64,000 nt of DNA from Phycisphaerae bacterium (GTDB lineage: Bacteria; Planctomycetota; Phycisphaerae; UBA1845), in assembly GCA_029260215.1 (NCBI GenBank), contig JAJDDQ010000058.1:1-64000 (forward strand). The letters run 5' to 3'. Position 1 is the first letter of the stretch; each line of letters opens with the position of its first letter. The notes beneath the pieces were generated by a model that saw only the letters and a program-made list of their open reading frames with translations, was not told the origin of the DNA and made no database searches. The translations under genes and the position numbers were made by a program. Positions 21 to 16,506 of this stretch are shown here, piece by piece.

Positions 21-2138
21 CTATCTCCCGATTGAATAAAAGATCGTAACACGCCCGGAATTCTGACAGCCCCCCGCGCCCTGCGCAAGTAAAGTGAGGC
101 GCGAATTATTCCACAGCGCCGAAGGAAATAGCCACACCCGAGTGATGATCTTCCTCGTCCGGCGACTGTGCCGAATCAGCCAGGGCAGCTTTCGCAGGTC
201 GTCCGTCATCAGCCCGATGTCAGCCGTCTCAAGAGACGCGTCCGTACCGCCACAGCCCATTGCAATTCCAACGTGCGCGGCGGCCAACGCGGGCGCATCG
301 TTGATCCCGTCTCCGACCATGATTACGTGCGTTCCCCTTGCTTTGTACGCCTCTACGGCTCGAACTTTGTCGGCAGGTAGCAACTCGGCCTGGTAATCGG
401 TAACACCGCATTCCTGCGCCACGGCTTGAGCGGTTCCTACGTTGTCGCCGGTCAGCATGACAATGGTCGAGACGCCGCACGCGCGCAGTTTCTCGACACT
501 CTCACGAGCCTCCTCACGTGGTGAATCCGCGAGGAGAAACACGCCGAGCGGATTGCCATCGGAACTCAATGCAATCACTGTATGGTGGCAGTCATCGTGT
601 TCGAGAATGGCTTGATGGGCTTCTGCTGTACAGTTGTTCTCCTCTTCGAGGAATCGATGGTTGCCGATCAGATAGGTCTTGCCTTCAATCTGCGCTTTCG
701 CCCCTTTGCCGGATATGGCTGTGTAGTTGTCACAAGGTGGGGGAGCGACACCCTGATCTCGCGCGTACGCAACGATCGCCTGTGCGATCCAATGCTCGCT
801 GCGTTGCTCAACGGCGGAAGCTAGTTCGAGCAAACAAGAGACCGAGGTGTTGTTGATCGGGATGACCTTCTCCACGATCGGGCGACCACGGGTCAAAGTT
901 CCGGTTTTGTCCAACGCGACAACCTCAGCCTTTCCAACGGATTCCAAGTACTCGCCGCCCTTTATCAAGACGCCGTTTCGGGCCGCCGAAGCCAGCCCGC
1001 TGACGATCGTAACGGGCGTGGAAATAACAAGGGCACAGGGGCAGGCGATGACAAGCAGGACGAGCGACCGGTACAGCCAAGTCCCCCAGTCGCCCTCCAA
1101 CACGGTGGGAGGAAGAACGCACACAAGAATCGCGCCGCCGATGACCGCCGGCGTGTAGTAACGGGCGAAGCGATCGACGAAACGCTCCGATGGAGAACGT
1201 CTCCCCTGGGCTTGATCGACCAGACGGATCACGCCCGCCAACACGGAGTCGCCGGCTGGTTTTGTCACGTTGATAACAACAGCACCCTCTTGATTGATCG
1301 TACCGGCGAATACTCCATCGCCGATCGCCTTGTTCACTGGTATCGACTCTCCGGTAATCGGGGCTTGGTTGGCGGACGTACTCCCTTCGATGACGCGTCC
1401 GTCGAGCGGGAATTTCTCGCCGGGCTTGACGATCACGTGATCGCCGATGACCACTTTGGATGCGTCGACTTCGACTTCGATCCCGTTTTCCATTCGGACG
1501 CGAGCTGTGGGGGGTGCGAGATCTATCAACGATTGGATCGCTCTTCGCGCACGGCCGACGCTCCAACCTTCGAGCCAATTGGAAAGCATGAACAGAAACG
1601 CGACAGTCGAGGCTTCGAACCATTCTCCAAGCCCAATGGCCCCAGAGACGGCCACAGTCATCAACACATTCATATCAGGCTGAAATCGCCCGGCGGCGCG
1701 CAACGCGTTTGGAGCTATGTGCCACCACGCGGCGGCAATCGCTATCGAATAAGCGATGGCGGAAGGCCAAGTCGTGTGATGAAGGGATGTTGCCGGCACC
1801 CAGGCCATCGCAAGCCCGGCGGCAGTGCCAAGCCCCGACACAATGGTCAATCGAAGCGTCTTTCGCTCGTTGCCGCTCTGGTTATCGTTCGGCATTTCAC
1901 GATCGGATGCCGTTGTCGCGTTCATCCCGGTTGTTCGGATGATCGAGATGATAGCCTCGGGGCCAACGGCGGATGGATCGAAGTCGACGGTCATCGTGCT
2001 GCGTATAAGATTGAAAGACAGGTCGAGGACGCCCGTCTTCCCCGCAAGGGCTCGTCGCAGATCCTCGATCTCGTCAGGACAATCCATGCCCGCGATTTGG
2101 AGACAGACTGTTTGCGACTCGCTGAGGTTAGGCTTCAT
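21..2138 (-). CDS. P1B-type heavy-metal ATPase (ZntA/CadA-like), C-terminus altered
   Basis: Predicted ATP-driven exporter of divalent soft metals (Zn/Cd/Pb class) in the inner membrane. Seen: an N-terminal HMA domain with GMDCPDE (Cys20), the TGE actuator motif (262-264), the CPC metal site in a membrane helix (366-368), the phosphorylated Asp410 in DKTGTLT, and a GDGINDAP hinge. Two things are odd. The conserved HP dipeptide of the nucleotide domain reads HW (SEHWIA). After RRTRKII the frame no longer resembles the family, and the last transmembrane pair is absent. A neighbouring frame at about 105-135 encodes VAISFGAVE followed by a stop, which resembles the expected helix start, so a frameshift is likely. 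It is the last gene of a metal-efflux series and begins 54 bp after czcA. Family is certain; activity is doubtful. Confidence 0.9.
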   Translation of the reverse strand: MKPNLSESQTVCLQIAGMDCPDEIEDLRRALAGKTGVLDLSFNLIRSTMTVDFDPSAVGPEAIISIIRTTGMNATTASDREMPNDNQSGNERKTLRLTIVSGLGTAAGLAMAWVPATSLHHTTWPSAIAYSIAIAAAWWHIAPNALRAAGRFQPDMNVLMTVAVSGAIGLGEWFEASTVAFLFMLSNWLEGWSVGRARRAIQSLIDLAPPTARVRMENGIEVEVDASKVVIGDHVIVKPGEKFPLDGRVIEGSTSANQAPITGESIPVNKAIGDGVFAGTINQEGAVVINVTKPAGDSVLAGVIRLVDQAQGRRSPSERFVDRFARYYTPAVIGGAILVCVLPPTVLEGDWGTWLYRSLVLLVIACPCALVISTPVTIVSGLASAARNGVLIKGGEYLESVGKAEVVALDKTGTLTRGRPIVEKVIPINNTSVSCLLELASAVEQRSEHWIAQAIVAYARDQGVAPPPCDNYTAISGKGAKAQIEGKTYLIGNHRFLEEENNCTAEAHQAILEHDDCHHTVIALSSDGNPLGVFLLADSPREEARESVEKLRACGVSTIVMLTGDNVGTAQAVAQECGVTDYQAELLPADKVRAVEAYKARGTHVIMVGDGINDAPALAAAHVGIAMGCGGTDASLETADIGLMTDDLRKLPWLIRHSRRTRKIITRVWLFPSALWNNSRLTLLAQGAGGCQNSGRVTIFYSIGR

Positions 2139-2192
2139 CGTTCTAATCCAGGATTGAGGTATGCTCCGAAAGTTGTGCTTTCCACGATTGTG

Positions 2193-5100
2193 TTACGCGG
2201 GATTCACCGCAGCTTCCTTGCCTCCGAGGAGCGAGTAGAACACCGGCAGCACGAGAAGCGTCAGCATCGTTGATGTCAGAATTCCGCCGATGACCACCGT
2301 TGCGAGAGGGCGCTGAACTTCGGCGCCTACGCCGGTATTGAATGCCATCGGCACGAACCCCAAAGCGGCGACCAGCCCGGTCATCAATACGGGGCGTAAG
2401 CGCATCATGGCTGCCCGCTCGATGGCTTCGTGCATGACCGCGCCCTTGTCGAGCAGGCTTCGAAGGTACGATACGAACACCATATCGCCGAGGACGGAGA
2501 CGCCGGACATAGCCACAAATCCCACACCGGCTGATATGCTGAACGGCATGTCGCGAAAGTACAGCGCAAAGATTCCGCCGACAGCCGACAGCGGGAGTGT
2601 GAGGAAGATACGAAATACATCTGTGACTCGTCCGTAGGTGATGTACAACAGGACGAAGATCAGGCTTAGGGCGAGCGGTACGACGAACATCAGGCGTGTC
2701 GCGGCACGCTCCAAATGTTCGAACTGCCCGCCGTAGCGGACGAAATAGCCCGGTGGGAATTCAACTTCGGATTCGATTCGTTTTCGCACCTCAGCCACCA
2801 GCGTGCCGACGTCGCGACCGCGTGCGTTGCACTGAACGACCACGCGGCGCTTGCTCCATTCGCGATTGATGGTGGATGGCCCATCGACGATCTCAATCTC
2901 GGCCAAGCGCGTGAGCGGCAGGAGTTGGCCCGAGGCGGTGGGAATCAGCAGGTTGGCGACGCGCTCCGGGTCCGTGCGATACTCATCCGGCAATCGTACG
3001 GAGAGCGGAAATCGAATCTGCCCCTGCCTAATCTCGCCGATGCGAATGTTGCCGATGGCTGCGATGAAATCCAGCACTTCGCCAGCCGGCACGCCGTGTC
3101 TTGCGAGCTGATCTTGTCGCAGGCGAATTTTCAGCATGGGCAAACCCGTGATTTGCTCCGTCACCGTGTCGGCGCTGCCGGGAATGGATTTCAGAATTTC
3201 CTCGATCTGTCCGGCGATGGACTTGAGTTGATCGAAATCATCCCCGAATACCTTGACACCCAGATCGCTGCGAATGCCGGCCACCATTTCGTTCACGCGC
3301 ATCTCGATGGGTTGCGTGAAGATCGCGCGCATGGCGGGCATGGTGCTCAATCGGCCTTCCATCAGCTCCACCAGCTCTGCCTGTGTGCGGGCACGCTGCC
3401 ACTGGGCGCGCGGGTGCAGTGTGATGAACACGTCGGTCAGTTCGATTCCCATCGGATCGGTGGCGACCTCGGCTGTTCCCGTACGCGACCAGATGTCGTT
3501 GATTTCGTCCGGAAAGCTTTGCAGCAACACGCGCTCGATCTGTGTTCCGTAGCGTACGGATTCATCCACGGAGACGCCCGCGAGCCGCACCGTATTGATA
3601 ACGATCGCCCCTTCGGAGAGGCGGGGGATGAAAACGGCTCCAAGCCCCATCGCGACCCAGACCGAGCACACAAGGGCGACCACCGTGGCGGACAGGACAA
3701 CGGTTCGAGCGTTCAAGAAAGCACGCAGCAAAGGTGCGTACACCCGTTTCGCAAGCCGGACTATAAGCGGCTCGCGTTCCTTCAGCTTCTTCGGCAAAAA
3801 CAGGCTGGCCAACACGGGCATGAGTGTCAGCGATGCGATCAACGATCCGATCAGCGCGAAAATGACTGTAAGCGCCATGGGCGAAAACAGTTTTCCCTCG
3901 ATGCCTTCCAGAGTCAGGATCGGCAGGTACACAATCATGATGATGAGTTCGCCGAACATTGTCGGCCTGCGCACTTCGATTGCGGCGTCGCGGACCACCT
4001 CGATCCTGGATCGGCCGTCCTTGTTCTCCGCTAGATGACGGACGCTGTTTTCGATCATGATGACCGAGCTGTCGACGACGAGACCGAAGTCTATGGCACC
4101 CAGGCTCATCAAGCTGCCGGCGATCCCGGCTCGAAGCATCAGGTTTCCCGCGAAGAGCATCGAGATGGGGATGGCGAGCGCTACGATCAAGCCGGCACGA
4201 AAATTCCCCAGGAAAAGGAACAAGATGACGATTACAAGTATCGCGCCTTCGAACAGATTCGTCTTAACGGTGTCGAGCACGCGATCAACCAGGTCCGTCC
4301 GGTCGTACAACGTCTTGACGGTCACATCCTCGGGGAGCGACATCCGCGCTTCGTCCAATCGCGTTTTCAGCCGCCCGGTGACGTCACGACTGTTCTCGCC
4401 CATGAGCATGAAGCCAAGCCCAAGCACAGCCTCGCCCTGCCCGCCGTAGGTGACAGCCCCGCGGCGCACCTCGTGCCCATCGATGACATCGCCGAGATCG
4501 CGCACGTAGACCGGCACGCCGTCTTCGGCCGTAACGACGATGTTGCCGATCTCTTCAAGCGTGGTGACGAACCCGATGCCCTGAACAAGCAACTGTTCGC
4601 CCGAGCGCGTAATGTTGCCGCCGCCGACGTTGGCATTGTTGCGACGAAGCGCGTTAAACAAATCCAGGAGCGACAGGCTGTACTTGTTCAGCTTGGCCGG
4701 ATCGACGACAACCTGATAGTGACGCTCCTGCCCGCCCCAACTGTTGACCTCCGCCACACCGGAAACACTGCGAAGCTGAGGCCTGAGAATCCAATCCTGA
4801 ATCGAACGAAGCTCGCTGAGGCTTTTCGTTTCGCTGGTAAGTATGTAATGGAAAACCTCACCCAGGCCCGTGGCGACAGGCCCCATCTCCGGCTGCGACA
4901 AGCCCTGTGGCAGTTCGACCGTGCTTAAACGTTCCATCACCTGCTGCCGGGCGAGATAGATGTCCGTGTCATCGTCGAAGATAACGGTGACTTGGGATAG
5001 GCCGAACTTGGAGATGGAGCGAACTTCCACAAGCCCCTTCAGCCCACTGATGGCCTGCTCGACGGGGAACGTGATTTGCTGTTCGATCTCGACGGGCGAC

Positions 5101-5267
5101 AACGCTGGTGCGACCGTGTTGACCTGCACCTGTATCGGCGTGGTATCGGGGAATGCGTCGATCGGCAGCCGCGACAGGGAAAACAAGCCCGTCACCGCGA
5201 GGCCCAGAGCGATCGCGATTACAAGAAAGCGATGCCGCAGTGACCAGAATATGATGGCATTGAGCAT
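2193..5267 (-). CDS. czcA: CzcA-family heavy-metal RND efflux pump
   Basis: Inner-membrane, proton-driven RND pump subunit of a tripartite metal exporter. At 1024 residues it has the full family length. The N-terminal LPIDAFPDTTPIQVQVNT signature is typical of CzcA. The fourth-helix motif AIDFGLVVDSSVIMIEN carries Asp393, Asp399 and Glu406, the layout linked to divalent Zn/Co/Cd export in HME-RND proteins. It begins 15 bp downstream of the adaptor stop codon and is followed by a P1B ATPase, so the three are probably co-transcribed. No outer-membrane partner (CzcC) lies beside it. The metal cannot be fixed from sequence alone. Confidence 0.95.
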   Translation of the reverse strand: MLNAIIFWSLRHRFLVIAIALGLAVTGLFSLSRLPIDAFPDTTPIQVQVNTVAPALSPVEIEQQITFPVEQAISGLKGLVEVRSISKFGLSQVTVIFDDDTDIYLARQQVMERLSTVELPQGLSQPEMGPVATGLGEVFHYILTSETKSLSELRSIQDWILRPQLRSVSGVAEVNSWGGQERHYQVVVDPAKLNKYSLSLLDLFNALRRNNANVGGGNITRSGEQLLVQGIGFVTTLEEIGNIVVTAEDGVPVYVRDLGDVIDGHEVRRGAVTYGGQGEAVLGLGFMLMGENSRDVTGRLKTRLDEARMSLPEDVTVKTLYDRTDLVDRVLDTVKTNLFEGAILVIVILFLFLGNFRAGLIVALAIPISMLFAGNLMLRAGIAGSLMSLGAIDFGLVVDSSVIMIENSVRHLAENKDGRSRIEVVRDAAIEVRRPTMFGELIIMIVYLPILTLEGIEGKLFSPMALTVIFALIGSLIASLTLMPVLASLFLPKKLKEREPLIVRLAKRVYAPLLRAFLNARTVVLSATVVALVCSVWVAMGLGAVFIPRLSEGAIVINTVRLAGVSVDESVRYGTQIERVLLQSFPDEINDIWSRTGTAEVATDPMGIELTDVFITLHPRAQWQRARTQAELVELMEGRLSTMPAMRAIFTQPIEMRVNEMVAGIRSDLGVKVFGDDFDQLKSIAGQIEEILKSIPGSADTVTEQITGLPMLKIRLRQDQLARHGVPAGEVLDFIAAIGNIRIGEIRQGQIRFPLSVRLPDEYRTDPERVANLLIPTASGQLLPLTRLAEIEIVDGPSTINREWSKRRVVVQCNARGRDVGTLVAEVRKRIESEVEFPPGYFVRYGGQFEHLERAATRLMFVVPLALSLIFVLLYITYGRVTDVFRIFLTLPLSAVGGIFALYFRDMPFSISAGVGFVAMSGVSVLGDMVFVSYLRSLLDKGAVMHEAIERAAMMRLRPVLMTGLVAALGFVPMAFNTGVGAEVQRPLATVVIGGILTSTMLTLLVLPVFYSLLGGKEAAVNPA

Positions 5268-5282
5268 AAGGGTTTTCCAGGC

Positions 5283-7367
5283 CTAGTCGACGTCGCAGCA
5301 TCCCGCGCCGATGTTGGACTTGAGGATCTCCGTTTTCATCAGAAAGCTGCCAACCGTAACCACGGATTCACCCGGCGACAGGCCCGCGAGAATTTCGACA
5401 TGACCGTTGGCGCTCGTACCCAGAGAGACTTTGCGCGGCTCGAAAAGAGTATCGTCCTGCTTGACGAACACGAGCTGACAGCAGCCGTCGGTCTGAACGG
5501 CTCCGCTGGGGACGGAGACGATTTCATCGTTGTCATGCACGATGATCCGCGCAAGCCCGAACATGTTGGCGCGGAGCAGGCCTCTCTCGTTGGGAAGACT
5601 CGCCCGAACTTTGACGGTACGCGTTTGATCGTCCACGACACTGCTGATCCACGTGACGGTTCCGTCGAAAGAGTGGCCGGGCAGACCATCCACCGTGAAC
5701 AGAATCGGCAAGCCTGTGCGAACGACCGCGAGGTCGCGTTCGCGCACCGCCATCATCAGCCACATCGTCGAGAGATCGGCGACCGTGTAGAGCGCGTCTC
5801 TCTGCTCGACGACTTCACCGACCACCGCCCGACGCTCCACGATGCGACCAGCCACCGGGCTGTGCAATGCGTAGCGGGTGAGTGCGGTGTCCGGTTCGTC
5901 GCCCAAGGTCGCCACCTGCGCCTCGCTCAGGCCGAGAATGTGAAGCTCACGCTCGACCGCATCCAATCCGCTCTTGGCCACCTTGAGCGTGCGCACCGCC
6001 ACAAGACGGTTTCGCTCGCTGTCGAACGCGACCGCCTCGCGCGTGGCGTAAAATGCCGCTTCGGCTGACACCAGCCTGCTCCTGGCTGTGTCGAAAGACT
6101 GTTCGCTGCTGATCTTCTTTTCGAGCAAAGTCCGCTCGCGCTCGAGTGTCGTGCGGGCCAGCTCCAGCGCGGCGTGCGCCTGCAACAGGCGGCTCTTGGC
6201 GTCGCCCACCCGGACATTCGCGATTTTCCTTCTAACCTCTTCGGACGCGGCTGACGCAGTGCAAACTTCCAGCATGTGCAGAGTCCCGCGATGGATCGTG
6301 TCCACACGCTCGAAATCCGCAATGGCGAGAAAATGCCCTTCGCGCATCCTGATGTAGCGGCTCTTCGCTTCACCGAGCGCGGGGCTTTCCAACACCGCCA
6401 GCAGATCACCGGCGTTGACGAAGCTTCCCACCTCGACGGACGCCTCCGTCACGAAACCGGGCACGCGGGGCGTGATTCTGACGAGCCGCGTCTGATCGAA
6501 ACCCGCTTCAGCCGGGCACTCGATCGTGTCGGATAAACGGCGCGTCCTGACGATCTCCGTTTCGATGCCGGCGTCGCGCGCCGTGGTCGCATCGAGGAAG
6601 CGAACCTTCAAGCGATCCACCTGACATTGGCTGTCGTTACTTCCCGTGAGCAAACGACGGTTGGCTACCAACTGAATCGGCAGGTCCGCGTCGATCATCG
6701 CTTCGCCGACCGGTTCGTCCTCCTGCCAATCCGGGTCGAGCCTAGCCCATCTGGCCTCGACCTCCGGATGACAGGCCACGCACTGCGATTCCGGCAGGTC
6801 GTGTTCTGCGCACCAGTCGCCCGCCTCCTTGAACGCTTCAGCCGAAGCGCCGCATCGCGTGCAGACGGATTCCGGTACGCCATGTCCGTTGCACCAGCCC
6901 TGATCGAGCGTCGGCTCCACGGCACTCGACGCAGGACCGGGCAGCGGACGCGCGTTTTCGCTCGCGGCGGTGGACACGGTTCCATCGGGAACATCCGTCG
7001 CGCCCGCTGGGTTCAAAGCAGCCCAACGTTCGCGGACTTCGGGGTTGCAGATCGTACACTGCGTCTCGGGCAGCCCGTGTGCCCCGCACCAGTCGCGTCC
7101 ATCCTTGAACTTCGCGATCAACGAAGAGTCGCATCGTGTGCAGACGGACTCCGGCACGCCGTGTCCGTTGCACCACCCTGCGGACATGTCGATCGGCACC
7201 GCGCTGGTATCGGGACCGAAGTCGGCATTACTGACCAGCTTCGCCGGTGCGGCGCTGTTACGCTGGTCGTGTAGCTCGCCGGTTTCGTCGCACCCGCTCG
7301 CAACGACCAACGCGAGCATCACCCCGGCACAAACCGCGCGGGATGTGGAGTTGAAAGTCGTCTTCAT
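5283..7367 (-). CDS. czcB: CzcB-like periplasmic adaptor lipoprotein with duplicated Cys/His metal-binding knuckles
   Basis: Membrane-fusion protein linking the CzcA pump to an outer channel. The ATG at 7367 is chosen over an upstream one because it has a GAGGAA ribosome-binding site and opens directly into a lipoprotein signal (VVASGC, Cys26). Residues 64-110 and 157-202 form two copies of a module, each with two knuckles of the form WCxxHxxPExxCxxC. The cysteines are near 66/76/79, 94/104/107, 159/169/172 and 186/196/199. The rest is a standard adaptor: barrel-sandwich half-motifs, a coiled-coil hairpin at about 400-520, and a beta-barrel end. The extra module probably captures or senses metal in the periplasm; that is inference. 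It ends with Cys-Cys before the last Asp-Val-Asp. Confidence 0.9.
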   Translation of the reverse strand: MKTTFNSTSRAVCAGVMLALVVASGCDETGELHDQRNSAAPAKLVSNADFGPDTSAVPIDMSAGWCNGHGVPESVCTRCDSSLIAKFKDGRDWCGAHGLPETQCTICNPEVRERWAALNPAGATDVPDGTVSTAASENARPLPGPASSAVEPTLDQGWCNGHGVPESVCTRCGASAEAFKEAGDWCAEHDLPESQCVACHPEVEARWARLDPDWQEDEPVGEAMIDADLPIQLVANRRLLTGSNDSQCQVDRLKVRFLDATTARDAGIETEIVRTRRLSDTIECPAEAGFDQTRLVRITPRVPGFVTEASVEVGSFVNAGDLLAVLESPALGEAKSRYIRMREGHFLAIADFERVDTIHRGTLHMLEVCTASAASEEVRRKIANVRVGDAKSRLLQAHAALELARTTLERERTLLEKKISSEQSFDTARSRLVSAEAAFYATREAVAFDSERNRLVAVRTLKVAKSGLDAVERELHILGLSEAQVATLGDEPDTALTRYALHSPVAGRIVERRAVVGEVVEQRDALYTVADLSTMWLMMAVRERDLAVVRTGLPILFTVDGLPGHSFDGTVTWISSVVDDQTRTVKVRASLPNERGLLRANMFGLARIIVHDNDEIVSVPSGAVQTDGCCQLVFVKQDDTLFEPRKVSLGTSANGHVEILAGLSPGESVVTVGSFLMKTEILKSNIGAGCCDVD

Positions 7368-7478
7368 TATTTTCCTCGGTTTCAAATTGGACGAACGCGC
7401 ACCGATCACCGGCAGCGTTGGCGGAATAAGGAAACGCACTGCGCGCACAGAGGCTGCGTCGCACTGACGGGCTGGGAA

Positions 7479-9784: not shown

Positions 9785-10276
9785 ATGAGCAGGCTTGGCA
9801 TTAAATCAACATGGAAGAAAGCGGTGGCGGCGGCGCTGGTTCTCGTGCTGCTCGCGCGCGTACCGTCTGCCGACGGGTTGCTGCTGCACGATCACGGCGA
9901 TCATGGCCTGCACGCGCATGCTGTGGCGCTCGACGACCTGTCCGGCGGCGGTTCTCGCCTTGCCTGGCACCACCACCATCACCACGATGACGGTCGCCAC
10001 GAAAAACGCGACGATACGGACGGTTGCGAGCATGCCGATTCACTGTTCATTTTCGTCAATGCCCCAGCCACTGCCACCGGCACCCATTGTGCATCGGGTG
10101 CAGTGTTTAGTCCGACGCAGCGTTTCTCCCCAAGCGCGTCGCCCCGGTTGATTCAATCGAGCGATTCGATCGAAACGCGTCGTTTTTCAGTCGCCCGCCA
10201 ACCTTGCGCGCACTCCCTGCGCCCGGTTTCCGCGCTCGATGCGCTGCTCAGTAGCAGCCACGCACTCCTGCTCTGA
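9785..10276 (+). CDS. His-rich exported small protein at head of second metal module
   Basis: A 163-residue protein with a basic N-region and hydrophobic core (about 12-30) resembling a signal peptide, then many His and Asp residues (HDHGDHGLHAHA, six consecutive His near 62-67). No enzyme domain is seen. It precedes the His-rich adaptor by about 110 bp on the same strand. Similar exported His-rich proteins head other metal-efflux gene sets. A periplasmic metal-binding role is inferred. No clear ribosome-binding site precedes the ATG; the strong His and cysteine bias argues it is a real gene. Confidence 0.6.
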   Translation: MSRLGIKSTWKKAVAAALVLVLLARVPSADGLLLHDHGDHGLHAHAVALDDLSGGGSRLAWHHHHHHDDGRHEKRDDTDGCEHADSLFIFVNAPATATGTHCASGAVFSPTQRFSPSASPRLIQSSDSIETRRFSVARQPCAHSLRPVSALDALLSSSHALLL

Positions 10277-10386
10277 TCCATTCGTGTTAATCGACTTGCT
10301 TCGTTTCCTGTCAGCCGTGTGGGCTGTGGGAGTTGTCCCCGTGCGTTGTGTACGGGGGCCGGCACGCGAATCGTAAGAGCACACTC

Positions 10387-12135
10387 ATGCAAAACTGTTT
10401 ACGAATGTTGGCGATGGCGGCCTCGCTCTCGCTGGGTGCGATGGTTGGATGCGACCGTCCCACGCAAGGCATGCCCGATACCCACGAGCACGGCGACGAT
10501 GATCACGGCCACGGACACGACGGCGAGGATGGCCTTGAGCCGATCGGTATTACCCTTTTTACCTCGAAGATGCTTCTGTACATGGAGTATCCGCATCTTG
10601 TGCAGGACGAGCAGGCGGAATTCCTCGCGCATTTTTCGGTGTTGGCCACCGGGGAACCCGTCCGTTCAGGATCGCTCACCTTCGAGGTAACCCCGCCGGG
10701 GGGTACGCCCGTAAACCTGACAATCGAGGCACCAAAACGCGACGGTTTGTACGTACCGGAATGGGTTTTCGAGTCTGCCGGTGTGCATCGACTGCGGCTG
10801 CTGCTAAATGGCCCACAGGTGCAGGACACGATCGATGTCGGCAGCGTGATCGTCCACGCCACCGTCCACGACGCCGAGCACGAAGCTTACGGGACGGAGG
10901 GCGACGAACCCCCCGATCTCGTGCCGTTTCTGCTGGAACAGCAGTGGAAGATCGAGTTATTGCTCGAATCGGCTTCGCTGCGCACATTGACGCACCGCAT
11001 CAAAGCCCCAGCGCGGATCGTTCCCAAGCACGGCACCTCAGCCGTGGCTGGCTCACCGATTGCAGGCCGCCTGTCGCCGCCTCACGATGGGCACTTCCCG
11101 CGCGTCGGAGAGCGTGTTGAAGCAGGAGAGGTGTTGGCATTCGTCGAGCCGCCTCTGCCCGTTACAGACGCGGCTCAACTCACCGCCAATCGTGCGTGGC
11201 AGGAAGCGCTGGAGTTGGAAATTGCATTCCGCAAACTCGATCTCGACATGAGAGCAGCTGAAGTCGAAAGAAATGTCCGCGCCGCGTCCGCCAAGCTGGA
11301 TTTCGCCAAACGCGCGAAAGCCCGCGCGGAAGAACTGCGTCAAAAGGGCATCGGAACGGACCAGCAATTCGAAAAAGCGATGCAGGATTTGCAGGTCGCA
11401 CGCGCGGAGCATGAGGCTGCCATCGCGTCGGAACGCGCCAACAACGAGATAAGAACGCATCTAAGTCAGCTTCACGCAAGGGCGGATAACGATCTTGATA
11501 CGGGCATCAGCCAAGCGTCGCACAGACATATGTCGATCAACGCACCCATCGCCGGCCTCGTGGTGGAAACGACCGGCATCGAGGGTGAGCACGTCGAGGC
11601 CCACGCGTCCGTGTTCAAAATCGTCAACGCCGACCGCGTCTGGGTACGCGCCAACGTGTCGGAGTTCGATCTCGGCTCGCTGAGTGACAATCCCGGCGCG
11701 ACGCTGACCCTGCCTGCGTTTCCCGGTTGGCGGACCGACATCCTGACCGAAGCCGGCGGTCGTTTCGTGCATCTGGGGACTGTCGTGGACGAAACGTCCC
11801 GCGTTGTCCCGATAATCTATGAGCTGCCCAACCCGCAGGGTCGATTTCGCATCGGAATGCTGGCTGAGGTTCTGGTGGCCACCGAAACAGCGGACGAGGT
11901 CGTGGCGATTCCCGAAAACGCCATCGTCATGGACAACGGCAGGCCGATCGCCTTCGTCATGCTCGGAGGCGAAACCTTCCAAAGGCGGGAGATCGAACTC
12001 GGCATCCGGGACAACGGCTTCGTGGAGATCAAAAACGGCGTCGAGGTCGGGGAATATGTCGCCACCAAAGGCTCCTACGCGCTCAAGCTGGCATCGCAGT
12101 CCCCATCGTCTTTTGGAGCGGGGCATGTTCATTAG
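10387..12135 (+). CDS. RND efflux periplasmic adaptor (CusB/CzcB-like) lipoprotein
   Basis: A 582-residue membrane-fusion protein. The ATG at 10387 is preferred to an upstream TTG because it directly begins a lipoprotein signal (GAMVGC, Cys22). Residues 30-48 are His/Asp-rich. Residues of about 52-165 form an Ig-like domain (EVTPPGGTP, VHRLRLLLNG) that resembles the extra N-terminal domain of other planctomycete and Bacteroidetes adaptors. Then come a barrel-sandwich, an alpha-helical hairpin rich in Ala/Glu/Arg (about 270-390) and a C-terminal beta-barrel (EVLVATETADEVVAIPENAIV). It should pair with the CusA-like pump starting at 13276, with the chelatase-like lipoprotein between them. Confidence 0.88.
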   Translation: MQNCLRMLAMAASLSLGAMVGCDRPTQGMPDTHEHGDDDHGHGHDGEDGLEPIGITLFTSKMLLYMEYPHLVQDEQAEFLAHFSVLATGEPVRSGSLTFEVTPPGGTPVNLTIEAPKRDGLYVPEWVFESAGVHRLRLLLNGPQVQDTIDVGSVIVHATVHDAEHEAYGTEGDEPPDLVPFLLEQQWKIELLLESASLRTLTHRIKAPARIVPKHGTSAVAGSPIAGRLSPPHDGHFPRVGERVEAGEVLAFVEPPLPVTDAAQLTANRAWQEALELEIAFRKLDLDMRAAEVERNVRAASAKLDFAKRAKARAEELRQKGIGTDQQFEKAMQDLQVARAEHEAAIASERANNEIRTHLSQLHARADNDLDTGISQASHRHMSINAPIAGLVVETTGIEGEHVEAHASVFKIVNADRVWVRANVSEFDLGSLSDNPGATLTLPAFPGWRTDILTEAGGRFVHLGTVVDETSRVVPIIYELPNPQGRFRIGMLAEVLVATETADEVVAIPENAIVMDNGRPIAFVMLGGETFQRREIELGIRDNGFVEIKNGVEVGEYVATKGSYALKLASQSPSSFGAGHVH

Positions 12136-12201
12136 GCGGCGCGCGTCAAATGTCCCGGCGGGCATTGCGGGTTGGAACTGATGAGGCTAGGATGCCTCGA
12201 A

Positions 12202-12218
12202 TTGAGACTCGGTCTCAA
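12202..12218. promoter_or_regulatory. Candidate Fur-type operator
   Basis: TTGAGACTCGGTCTCAA is an 8-1-8 palindrome with one mismatched pair. It resembles Fur-family boxes of the TGAGAAT-n-ATTCTCA type. It lies 40 bp upstream of the CbiX-like lipoprotein start, in the only sizeable gap of the module. Regulation by Fur or a relative is an inference. Confidence 0.4.
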
Positions 12219-12257
12219 CTAATAATGACCCCTTGAAGACAGCAGGAGAACGTTTCG

Positions 12258-13136
12258 ATGAGGATTTTTTCACTCTTGATGGTCGCGAGCATCAGCGCGT
12301 GTTCCGCCCCCAAATCCGGCGTATTGTTGATGGCACACGGTGGCAGCGCCGCCTGGAATCAGAATATTGAAGCGACGGTGGCGCCGTTGCGGGACAAATA
12401 TCCGATCGAAATCGCCTTCGGGATGGCCAAAACGTCCACCATCAGGGAGGGCGTGCGGAAGCTGGAGGATCAGGGCGTGAAACGGATCGCCGTGGTCCGC
12501 ATGTTCGTTTCCGGCGACAGCTTCATCGAGCCGACCGAAGTCATCCTCGGGATGCGCGAAGCACCGCCCAAATCCGCCCACGCCTCGCACGGTTCCCACG
12601 GCTCGCACAGCATGGTCGGCGGCGGTGGTCATCACATGGAAACGCCCGAGCGAATCGACACGAATGCGTCGTTCATCGTCAGCCGTAAGGGCGTCGGCGA
12701 GTCGCCGCTCGTTTCGGAAATCCTGGTGGATCGCGTCAAAGCGTTGAGCACCAAGCCGACCGAAGAAAGCGTGCTGATTCTCGCCCACGGGCCTGCCGAC
12801 GAAGCGGAGAACGAGCGCTGGTTGGCCAACATGAGGTTGCGCGCTCAGCAGCTTCATCAGCTTGGCGGGTTCAGGCACATTCAGTGCGAAACGTTGCGCG
12901 AGGATTGGCCCGAAAGACGTGCCGAAGCGGAGAAACGCATCAAGGAGTACGTGGCATCCGGTAATAAGAATGGCGGGCGCGTCATCGTTGTGCCGTTCCG
13001 CATCGGCGGGTTCGGGCCTTACCGGGAGGTTCTGGAAGGGCTGGACTACGTAGCCAGCGAACGTGGATTCTGCCCGCATCCCAACATGACAAGCTGGATT
13101 GAGCAGACCGCCGAAGAGTGTCTGAACAAAGGTTAA
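12258..13136 (+). CDS. Exported CbiX/SirB-like chelatase lipoprotein with His-rich insert
   Basis: A 292-residue protein made of two CbiX-like halves. The first has VLLMAHGGSA (His27) and the second VLILAHGPAD (His177); these match the conserved metal-binding His of sirohydrochlorin cobalt/iron chelatases. Unusually for this cytoplasmic enzyme family, it starts with a lipoprotein signal (SISAC, Cys15). Residues 108-126 form a His/Ser/Gly-rich insert (HASHGSHGSH and a further HH pair). The second conserved His expected late in each half is not evident. The ribosome-binding site GCAGGAG lies about 8 bp before the ATG. Its place between an RND adaptor and pump suggests a periplasmic metal chaperone, perhaps for Co, Ni or Fe; this is inference. 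Confidence 0.82.
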   Translation: MRIFSLLMVASISACSAPKSGVLLMAHGGSAAWNQNIEATVAPLRDKYPIEIAFGMAKTSTIREGVRKLEDQGVKRIAVVRMFVSGDSFIEPTEVILGMREAPPKSAHASHGSHGSHSMVGGGGHHMETPERIDTNASFIVSRKGVGESPLVSEILVDRVKALSTKPTEESVLILAHGPADEAENERWLANMRLRAQQLHQLGGFRHIQCETLREDWPERRAEAEKRIKEYVASGNKNGGRVIVVPFRIGGFGPYREVLEGLDYVASERGFCPHPNMTSWIEQTAEECLNKG

Positions 13137-13275
13137 GTAAGCCCCGCAGCCGGGCGCAGCAGATACAAGTACTGCGCGCCCTGCTATGACCTTTTCCATA
13201 CCGGTGTACCGGTTCAAGGCAGAGGTTCTGGTCGCAGGCGGGGCGGGGTATGGTTACCTTGGAAGGGTTGCGACG

Positions 13276-16200
13276 ATGATTAACGGGCTGATTCGCTGGT
13301 CACTCGCCAACCGCCTGGCCGTCGTTGTTCTGTCGGCGATGCTCGTGATTGTCGGCGTTTTCGTGACCACCACCGTTCCCGTGGACGTGTTTCCCGATCT
13401 GACGGCGCCAACCGTGTCCATCCTCGTTGAGGGCCACGGAATGGCACCGGAAGAGATGGAAACGCTCGTAACCTTCCCCATCGAAACCGCCGTCAACGGG
13501 GCGGCTAGCGTCCGGCGCGTGCGCTCGGCCACCGCGGTGGGGATCGCCGTCGTGTGGGTCGAATTCGAGTGGGGCACCGACATTTACCGTGCGCGGCAGA
13601 CGGTGAATGAGCGGTTGGCCACCGTCTCCGGCAAGCTGCCGCCGCAGGTCGAGCCGCCCCTGCTCGCGCCCATCTCGTCCATCATGGGCGAGATTATGTT
13701 CATCTCACTCATCTCGGACAAACACGGCCCACTACAACTGCGGACGGTCGCGACGACCGATCTTCGCAGGCGACTTCTTTCCATCCCCGGCGTTTCGCAA
13801 GTCACGCCCATCGGTGGAGACGAAAAGCAATATCAGGTGGTATTGTCTCCGCAGCGACTTCGAGCCTATGGTTTGAATATGCGGCAGGTCGCGGATTCGT
13901 TGCGCGGTGCGAACGAAAATGTCTCCGCAGGGTTTCTTGTTCAGGGCGGCGAGGAGTCGATTCTTCAGGGCATCGGACGAATTCAGACGACGCGCGACAT
14001 CGCCGATACCGTGGTCGCGTTACGCGGGGACAGGCCCGTCAAAGTATCCGATCTCGGTGTTGTTCGGATCGGGGCAGCCATCAAGCGCGGTACGGGGTCG
14101 GCCTCACGACGCGGGCCTGATTGGGAGCCGATCACCGAGCCAGCCGTCATTCTCGCCATCCAGAAGCAGCCCGGAACCAACACGCTGACGCTGACGGAAC
14201 AGCTTGACGCTGCATTGGACGAGATGCAGGCGTCGCTGCCGGACGGCATGTACATCAACAAGAATCTCTTTCGGCAGGCGGATTTTATCCAAATTTCGAT
14301 TCACAACACGATCGAAGCGCTCCGCGACGGCGGCATCATGGTGATCCTCGTCGTCGTCGTGTTCCTGGCGAGCATGAGATCGAGCATCATCACGCTGTTG
14401 GCCATCCCCATCTCGCTCATCGTCACCGTGCTGGCGTTGAAGGCGTTCGGTTCGAGCATCAACACCATGACGCTCGGCGGGATGGCCATCGCGATCGGTG
14501 CGCTCGTCGACGACGCCATCATCGACGTGGAGAACATCGTGCGCCGTTTGCGCGAAAACGCCGCGTTGCCGAGCGAGAAAAGACGTACGCCCGTCGAGAT
14601 CGTGTTCAAAGCGAGTGTGGAAGTGCGGGCGTCGATCGTTTTCGCCACGCTCATCATTCTGCTGGTTTTCGTGCCTCTGTTCTTTTTGTCCGGTGTCGAA
14701 GGTCGTCTGCTGCAACCGCTCGGCATCGCATTCATGGTCTCGTTGGCTGCGTCGCTTCTGGTCGCCCTGACGGTGACGCCTGCGTTGAGTTACTACCTGC
14801 TGCCCACAAGCTCAGCCGTTACCCGAGCCGATGAGCCGTGGCTTGTGCGATTTCTCAAACGAATCTATGACAAACCGCTTCGCTGGGCGATGCGTCATCC
14901 GTGGCTGGTAGCTGTGCCCACCGCGCTTTTGCTTGCTCTGGCGATCTTCGTCGGCGCCTCCCAAGGCCGAAGCTTTCTGCCGGAGTTCAACGAAGGTGCG
15001 CTTGTGGTCGGCATTGTCACGCTGCCCGGCACGTCGCTGGAAGAGTCCGACAGGTTGGCCAACATCATACAGACCACGCTCATGGAGCATCCGGAGATTG
15101 TGGCCATCGGTCGGCGCACCGGGCGCGCCGAACAGGACGAGCATGTTCAGGGCGTCGAGGCTAGCGAGATTGACCTGACGCTCGACATGAGTGCGCCGGA
15201 GCGTCTTGGCCTTGAGCGACGCAGCAAAGCCGAGCTGTTGAAGGCTCTGAGGAGCAGCTTGGCTGTGGTTCCCGGCGTGCAGACCACCTTCGGGCAGCCC
15301 ATAGGGCATCGCGTTGACCACATGTTGTCCGGCACGCGCGCCAACATCGCCATCAAGGTTTTCGGGAGCGATCTCAAGAAGCTGCGCTCGTTGGCCAAGC
15401 AGATTGAAACAACGATCGAACCGATTCCCGGCGTTGTGGACCTCTCCACGGAGCAGCAAACGGACATCCCCACGGTGCGCGTTGAGTTTGATCGTACCGC
15501 GCTGGCTCGATTCGGGCTGACCACCGACGACGCAGCCTCCGCGCTCGAAGCCGCGTTTAAGGGTGTGGAGGTCACGCAAATTCTGGAGGGACGCAAGACC
15601 TACGATCTCGTCGTGCGCGTTGGCGGCGGTGATGGCGATGAGGCGGTGTCGTGGTTGAAAGCGTCGTCGCGCGACGTTCGCGAAGTGCTGGTCGATACGC
15701 CCGGTGGCACGAAAATTCCATTGAAATCCGTGGCGCGCATCAGCGAGGAGCGAGGCCCAAACCTCGTCATGCGGGAGAACGCGCATCGCCGGATTATTGT
15801 CCAGTGCAATGTGGCTGATCGTGATTTGGGCGGCGTGGTGGATGACATTCGCCAAGCCGTTGCGGAAAAGGTCGAGCTTCCGCAAGGTTACTACGTTAAA
15901 TACGGCGGCCAGTTTGAGAGCGCTGAACAAACGCGACGCAGGTTGGCGATTCTCGGTCTGGTGGTCGTTCTTGGGATCGGATTCCTGCTTCACGTCGTGT
16001 TTCGAAGCGTGCGCGACGCGGCGCTCATCATGTTGAACCTGCCGTTGGCATTGATCGGCGGTGTGGTCGGTGTGTATCTTTCCGGCGGAGTCCTGTCTGT
16101 AGCTTCGTTGATCGGGTTCATCAGCGTGTTCGGCATCGCCGCCCGCAACGGCATCATGATGGTCTCGCACATTCGTCACCTTCAGAGATTTGAAGGAGTC

Positions 16201-16506
16201 ACCGACTTTGCCGAGGCGGTGCGACGGGGCGCGCTGGAACGCCTGGCCCCCATTCTGATGACCGCGATGGGGTCGGGATTGGCTTTGATTCCGCTGGTGG
16301 TCGGCGGCGATCAACCGGGCAAGGAGATTCTTCGCCCGATGGCCATGGTGATCCTGTTCGGCCTGTTATCCTCGACGTTCCTGAACATGATCGTCGTTCC
16401 CGCGTTGTTCGTACGTTTCGCTCTTCCGGTAGAAGCCGAGTCGCCCGTCGAAATCGAAGGCGACATCCAGCGGATTGGCCACGCGCTTCCCGCCGTCCCG
16501 ATTTGA
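13276..16506 (+). CDS. CusA/CzcA-family heavy-metal RND efflux pump
   Basis: A 1076-residue inner-membrane RND pump. The ATG at 13276 follows a GGAAGGG ribosome-binding site and gives the usual RND start (MINGLIRWSLANRL); the 30 upstream in-frame codons are non-coding in appearance. The signature VPVDVFPDLTAPTVSIL is present. The proton-relay helix reads GALVDDAIIDVENIVRR with Asp412, Asp413, Asp417 and Glu419. That differs from the CzcA-type motif of the other pump in this window and is closer to CusA-like sequences, so the two pumps probably handle different metals. A 139-bp gap with a GC hairpin separates it from the chelatase gene. No outer-membrane factor follows. Confidence 0.93.
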   Translation: MINGLIRWSLANRLAVVVLSAMLVIVGVFVTTTVPVDVFPDLTAPTVSILVEGHGMAPEEMETLVTFPIETAVNGAASVRRVRSATAVGIAVVWVEFEWGTDIYRARQTVNERLATVSGKLPPQVEPPLLAPISSIMGEIMFISLISDKHGPLQLRTVATTDLRRRLLSIPGVSQVTPIGGDEKQYQVVLSPQRLRAYGLNMRQVADSLRGANENVSAGFLVQGGEESILQGIGRIQTTRDIADTVVALRGDRPVKVSDLGVVRIGAAIKRGTGSASRRGPDWEPITEPAVILAIQKQPGTNTLTLTEQLDAALDEMQASLPDGMYINKNLFRQADFIQISIHNTIEALRDGGIMVILVVVVFLASMRSSIITLLAIPISLIVTVLALKAFGSSINTMTLGGMAIAIGALVDDAIIDVENIVRRLRENAALPSEKRRTPVEIVFKASVEVRASIVFATLIILLVFVPLFFLSGVEGRLLQPLGIAFMVSLAASLLVALTVTPALSYYLLPTSSAVTRADEPWLVRFLKRIYDKPLRWAMRHPWLVAVPTALLLALAIFVGASQGRSFLPEFNEGALVVGIVTLPGTSLEESDRLANIIQTTLMEHPEIVAIGRRTGRAEQDEHVQGVEASEIDLTLDMSAPERLGLERRSKAELLKALRSSLAVVPGVQTTFGQPIGHRVDHMLSGTRANIAIKVFGSDLKKLRSLAKQIETTIEPIPGVVDLSTEQQTDIPTVRVEFDRTALARFGLTTDDAASALEAAFKGVEVTQILEGRKTYDLVVRVGGGDGDEAVSWLKASSRDVREVLVDTPGGTKIPLKSVARISEERGPNLVMRENAHRRIIVQCNVADRDLGGVVDDIRQAVAEKVELPQGYYVKYGGQFESAEQTRRRLAILGLVVVLGIGFLLHVVFRSVRDAALIMLNLPLALIGGVVGVYLSGGVLSVASLIGFISVFGIAARNGIMMVSHIRHLQRFEGVTDFAEAVRRGALERLAPILMTAMGSGLALIPLVVGGDQPGKEILRPMAMVILFGLLSSTFLNMIVVPALFVRFALPVEAESPVEIEGDIQRIGHALPAVPI

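Follow-up and report, generated by a model that had tools for sequence, protein, structure and literature searches.

The CbiX-like gene that lies between the adaptor and pump genes of a CusA/CzcA-type RND operon in the window (the whole 64-kb stretch of DNA analysed here) probably encodes a Fur-controlled, exported protein with a class II chelatase fold that would serve iron or heme-iron acquisition. The features of this region are:

9785-10276, plus strand: exported His-rich protein whose place before the adaptor is conserved among orthologous operons
10333-12135, plus strand: RND periplasmic adaptor (HlyD_D23) with a His-rich N-terminus
12202-12218, no strand assigned: 17-bp palindrome TTGAGACTCGGTCTCAA, putative operator of the Fur type, 40 bp before the start of the CbiX-like gene
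12258-13136, plus strand: exported two-half CbiX/SirB-fold lipoprotein, 292 aa, with lipobox Cys15, an AHG motif in each half and a His-rich loop
13276-16506, plus strand: CusA/CzcA-family RND pump, whose ORF opens at 13186

The flanking genes are as the sequence-only reading had described them, including the His-rich exported protein and the His-rich adaptor. The adaptor's lipoprotein start is probably at 10387, and the pump probably starts at 13276 rather than 13186, because its homologues align from 13276; the nearest solved structures to the pump are ZneA and CusA. Positions 21-7448, on the opposite strand, hold another heavy-metal system that diverges from this one:

21-2138, minus strand: P-type ATPase-like ORF
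2193-5267, minus strand: CusA-type pump
5283-7448, minus strand: adaptor with a repeated Cys/His motif (WCNGHGVPESVCTRC, WCGAHGLPETQCTIC) in its N-terminus

The description of the protein as two-half and CbiX-like stood. Its first half matched Pfam CbiX (PF01903) at 25.8 bits against a curated cut-off of 22, matches to the NCBIfam CfbA models fell below those models' own cut-offs, and both halves were visible in the family alignment, each with one AHG motif. An AlphaFold model built from 5 sequences, and thus from a shallow alignment, gave a pLDDT of 82.6 and a pTM of 0.77, with mature loop residues 91-110 disordered. The predicted two-half class II fold was closest to B. subtilis SirB (5zt8; Z 16.5 over 229 residues, rmsd 3.4), followed by periplasmic CbiK (2xvx; Z 15.7) and Porphyromonas gingivalis FetB (9b86; Z 14.5).

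The N-terminus of the ORF (MRIFSLLMVASISAC followed by SAPKSGVLLMAHGGS) comprises a short hydrophobic stretch and the lipobox ISAC. The lipobox Cys is present in 20 of 23 non-anammox homologues (family alignment, read by eye), and the remaining three have an ordinary hydrophobic N-terminal stretch instead. Lipoprotein export, predicted in the sequence-only reading, is thus right and conserved as judged from these N-termini. The His-rich insert (about residues 106-125) is likewise real. It is not unusual for this fold, since the sequence match places it where archaeal CfbA/CbiXS has its own His-rich loop. A second two-half CbiX/SirB gene was found elsewhere in the same genome (contig C56), beside cobA-like, hemA-like and sulfate-assimilation-type genes. 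Its product is cytosolic and canonical, and the window copy is therefore not the housekeeping chelatase.

The evidence for iron control comes from the palindrome. In the window it is the sole match at up to three mismatches, a search that expects about 2 chance matches over this length; we therefore placed weight on zero mismatches and on relatives. Genome-wide, 12202-12218 is the only zero-mismatch site. A scan of 11 related genomes with TGAGANTNANTCTCA returned 20 exact sites, distributed over 8 genomes, and a backward control pattern returned 1. When the flanks were read with the help of Pfam and phmmer, 19 of these 20 boxes fell before just three gene types: the CbiX-like gene (7 sites), heme oxygenase (7, one of them, in G710, about 0.9 kb from the gene) and the Fe2+ uptake genes feoAB (5). 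The window genome itself carries box-like sites before heme oxygenase (ATGAGAATCAGTCTCAA, L148) and before feoA (TTGCGACTCAGTCGCAA, L165), and has one Fur gene (G000:C33:118901-119254). A 17-bp Fur palindrome also precedes feoAB in delta-proteobacteria, and the geometry of our box equals it (PMC545781). Because of the box's targets, we infer that Fur is its binder.

The twentieth exact box (G559:C74; L157:4542) lies before a prepilin-like gene (4614-5534, plus strand). In four CbiX-like homologues (L108:1018, L109:2935, L099:9498 and L007:7828) the box runs into the ORF as called, covering its first codons (ATGCAACTGAGACTCATTCTCAAT and similar), so translation may really begin further downstream.

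At 11 loci, scattered over the tree, a matrix built solely from ten feo and heme-oxygenase boxes scored at least 20 in front of the CbiX-like gene, with 0 of 300 shuffles reaching this score at each. The scan found no box at 8 of the 18 close loci (L095, L097, L098, L100, L101, L104, L110 and L111) or near the gene at the remaining distant loci. The same box also precedes an anammox-type operon, so labelled from the gene content of the genomes, that encodes a P-type ATPase and an exported CbiX.

Presence of heme oxygenase did not follow presence of the CbiX-like gene (8 of 16 genomes with the gene, 16 of 30 without), and the two are therefore not obligate partners. Among genomes that have the gene, heme oxygenase occurred in 7 of 8 with the box and in 1 of 8 without it (p about 0.01), a split made post hoc, after the data were seen, and among related genomes that are not independent.

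Homologues are sparse: they were present in 22 of 392 sampled genomes of the phylum and in 17 of 397 of the class, on four further contigs (some identical with contigs already counted) and on three plasmids of Candidatus Manganitrophus (Nitrospirota). On these plasmids the homologue lies beside genes for a sigma-like regulator, a TonB-dependent receptor, a PepSY membrane protein and a ferritin-like protein. The anammox-type operon runs HMA_2, unknown, P-type ATPase, small protein, exported CbiX, thioredoxin-like, encapsulin, multiheme-Cu-oxidase; the CbiX of this type of relative matched PF01903 at 47.9 bits. One such region (L044:3656-16548) holds three Fur-like boxes together with HMA_2, P-type ATPase, exported CbiX, thioredoxin-like, encapsulin and Cu-oxidase/multiheme genes, and is possibly an iron-controlled encapsulin locus.

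Position between adaptor and pump had suggested a different role, in which the lipoprotein is a periplasmic hand-over or buffering factor that would take up Cu, Co, Ni or Zn and deliver it to the adaptor or pump. Comparison of gene order with other genomes divided the evidence. Two orthologous operons (L112 and L113), in G664 and G547, with pumps 89% and 85% identical to the window pump, have the His-rich protein, adaptor and pump complete but no CbiX-like gene between adaptor and pump; in G664 these two genes are 15 bp apart. The nearest homologues of the window protein (L095, L100 and L101) lie away from pumps. Together, these observations make the window arrangement look like an insertion of the CbiX-like gene into a metal RND operon. 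Conversely, in L103 the corresponding His-rich/adaptor/pump operon directly follows the homologue on the same strand, and in L097, L104, L105 and L107 CusA-type pumps occur within about 6 kb of it. With the window included, this amounts to 6 of 18 close loci, compared with a rough expectation of a few percent for a random gene (some contigs are short, and related genomes have 0 to 7 CusA-type pumps in 3-9 Mb). These loci come from related genomes, so that the independent events are fewer, about three to four. Even so, the gene does cluster, loosely but repeatedly, with metal-pump loci in order-level relatives, and iron acquisition alone does not explain this. In L104, a gene for a DtxR-type regulator lies 48 bp upstream of the homologue.

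RND clustering was considered as the main context of the family and rejected, in view of the orthologous operons that are without the gene and the close relatives located elsewhere. These comparisons do not support a dedicated hand-over role, nor does it fit a box that is common to iron uptake genes rather than efflux genes; some link to metal-pump loci is real, and anammox relatives place CbiX behind a metal P-type ATPase. We consider hand-over to the RND pump unlikely on present evidence. The window adaptor and pump are of the CusCBA/CzcCBA kind, and we know of no CbiX-fold component in such systems.

The residues of the predicted cleft bear on what the protein might do there. The metal site of CfbA (His9/Glu42/His75) corresponds to His10/Glu43/His76 of SirB (PMC11301274). 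In an alignment to CfbA, the first half of the window protein retains mature His12 but has Met41 and Phe74 at the Glu42 and His75 positions; the second half retains His162 but has Gly238 in place of the second His (the mapping onto the CfbA/SirB site was partly by eye). Thus neither half has the His-His pair of class II chelatases, the first His alone being kept in each. This loss argues, at the level of aligned residues, against ordinary chelatase catalysis, and since the canonical His-Glu-His site is not conserved, dechelatase activity cannot be assumed either. In the CbiX-S/CfbA dimer, equivalent His positions face one another across the tetrapyrrole (PMC7689651). With one His from each half in the cleft, a sandwich of the heme type is plausible, although His12 and His162 only suggest heme binding.

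These features set the protein apart from its known relatives. It shares with SirB/CbiX-L (sirohydrochlorin ferro-/cobaltochelatase) the two-half fold over its whole length and the equivalent of the first-half His10, but it is exported, box-controlled and has Met and Phe for Glu43 and His76. It resembles the archaeal nickelochelatase CfbA/CbiX-S in sequence, His-rich loop included, and, like the homodimer, has an AHG His on either side of the cleft, but its halves are fused, it is exported, and the second His of each site is lost. Export of the fold is not in itself new, and the new role that the sequence-only reading saw for it overlooks two known cases: both the periplasmic cobaltochelatase CbiK(P) of Desulfovibrio vulgaris and FetB/IhtB of P. 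gingivalis, a surface/exported protein linked to heme-iron use (PMC6460266, PMC13227078), are exported proteins of this fold. CbiK(P) is of the CbiK sequence type, was not matched in a sequence search and is 14% identical to the window protein (the His pair of Salmonella CbiK sits in its C half; PMC7689651). FetB/IhtB is 12% identical and is a Bacteroidota protein. It is encoded with a TonB-type uptake system.

A FetB-like exported enzyme that inserts or swaps metal in an extracellular tetrapyrrole, and takes no part in iron acquisition, would account for the modelled fold matches to FetB and periplasmic CbiK and for the cleft His retained in each half, and FetB has been reported to make Mn-protoporphyrin (PMC13402209). 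We regard such an activity as improbable here: the second metal-site His is gone from both halves, no tetrapyrrole biosynthesis genes were recognised nearby, and the genome has its separate cytosolic SirB/CbiX. Least probable of all is a catalytically dead fold that stores or senses iron or another metal outside the cytoplasm with the His-rich loop as its working part, for although the chelatase dyad is lost and nearly all close homologues have the loop, it varies in length and content, and the best-conserved stretches belong to the folded core (AHG in the first half, EIAFGMA, HxME after the loop, AHGP in the second half, CETLREDW, GFGPY and CPHPNMTxW).

Acquisition of iron or heme iron is the reading that we prefer, and binding of heme or iron outside the cytoplasm, feeding FeoAB, is the most likely role. 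We infer the ligand and the direction of metal flow from context: regulation and the Manganitrophus neighbourhood point to iron acquisition, and the fold together with heme-oxygenase co-regulation points to heme. Together with feoAB and heme oxygenase, the CbiX-like gene would form a small iron-starvation regulon under Fur. At low iron, Fur would leave the 12202-12218 palindrome and the protein would be made; anchored to the membrane outside the cytoplasm, it would bind iron or an iron-tetrapyrrole, most likely heme, in the cleft between its halves, where mature His12 and His162 could lie on the two faces of the ring. The His-rich loop would receive or deliver the metal, which FeoAB would then import. 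In the window lineage, this Fur-controlled gene would have been inserted between adaptor and pump, and its promoter may also drive transcription of the pump. Among the annotated neighbours of the gene in Planctomycetota, no TonB receptor or heme transporter was recognised, and the window genome has two TonB receptors, neither linked to heme import.

An open question is how bacteria extract iron from heme outside the cytoplasm. In Bacteroides, heme is dechelated in the periplasm and the iron imported by FeoAB; the periplasmic dechelatase of Bacteroides fragilis has been described biochemically, and the protein was not identified in that work (PMC6460266). For IhtB/FetB, extraction of iron from heme has been proposed (PMC6460266; PMC13227078). 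An exported chelatase-fold family whose operator is common to feoAB and heme oxygenase is a specific candidate for a periplasmic dechelatase. We propose, tentatively and as the more doubtful part of our reading, that it constitutes a new exported CbiX-fold family with one His per half in a sandwich cleft, acting as a periplasmic heme-binding or heme-iron-extracting factor within the Fur regulon of Planctomycetota, with relatives in Nitrospirota. If true, the sandwich-cleft family would be a candidate for the type of dechelatase described in Bacteroides. We found no earlier description of an exported CbiX or of a planctomycete Fur box in the literature searched, and the results outline an iron regulon and its operator for Planctomycetota. 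They also illustrate that gene order alone, here a position between adaptor and pump, can mislead about function.

Two further gene families recur near the CbiX-like gene. In L095 and L101 it has a prepilin-like gene directly upstream, and in L102 a divergent one. The second family (IQRWKEDPGGTYRAWFLWDERIKNFRSIR) had no Pfam match in the member tested, from L105; its members are:

L096:17256-18539
L105:11012-12286
L106:4948-6249
L107:12045-13361
L102:6392-7666

In L102 and L105, a gene for a CsoR-like regulator is also nearby.
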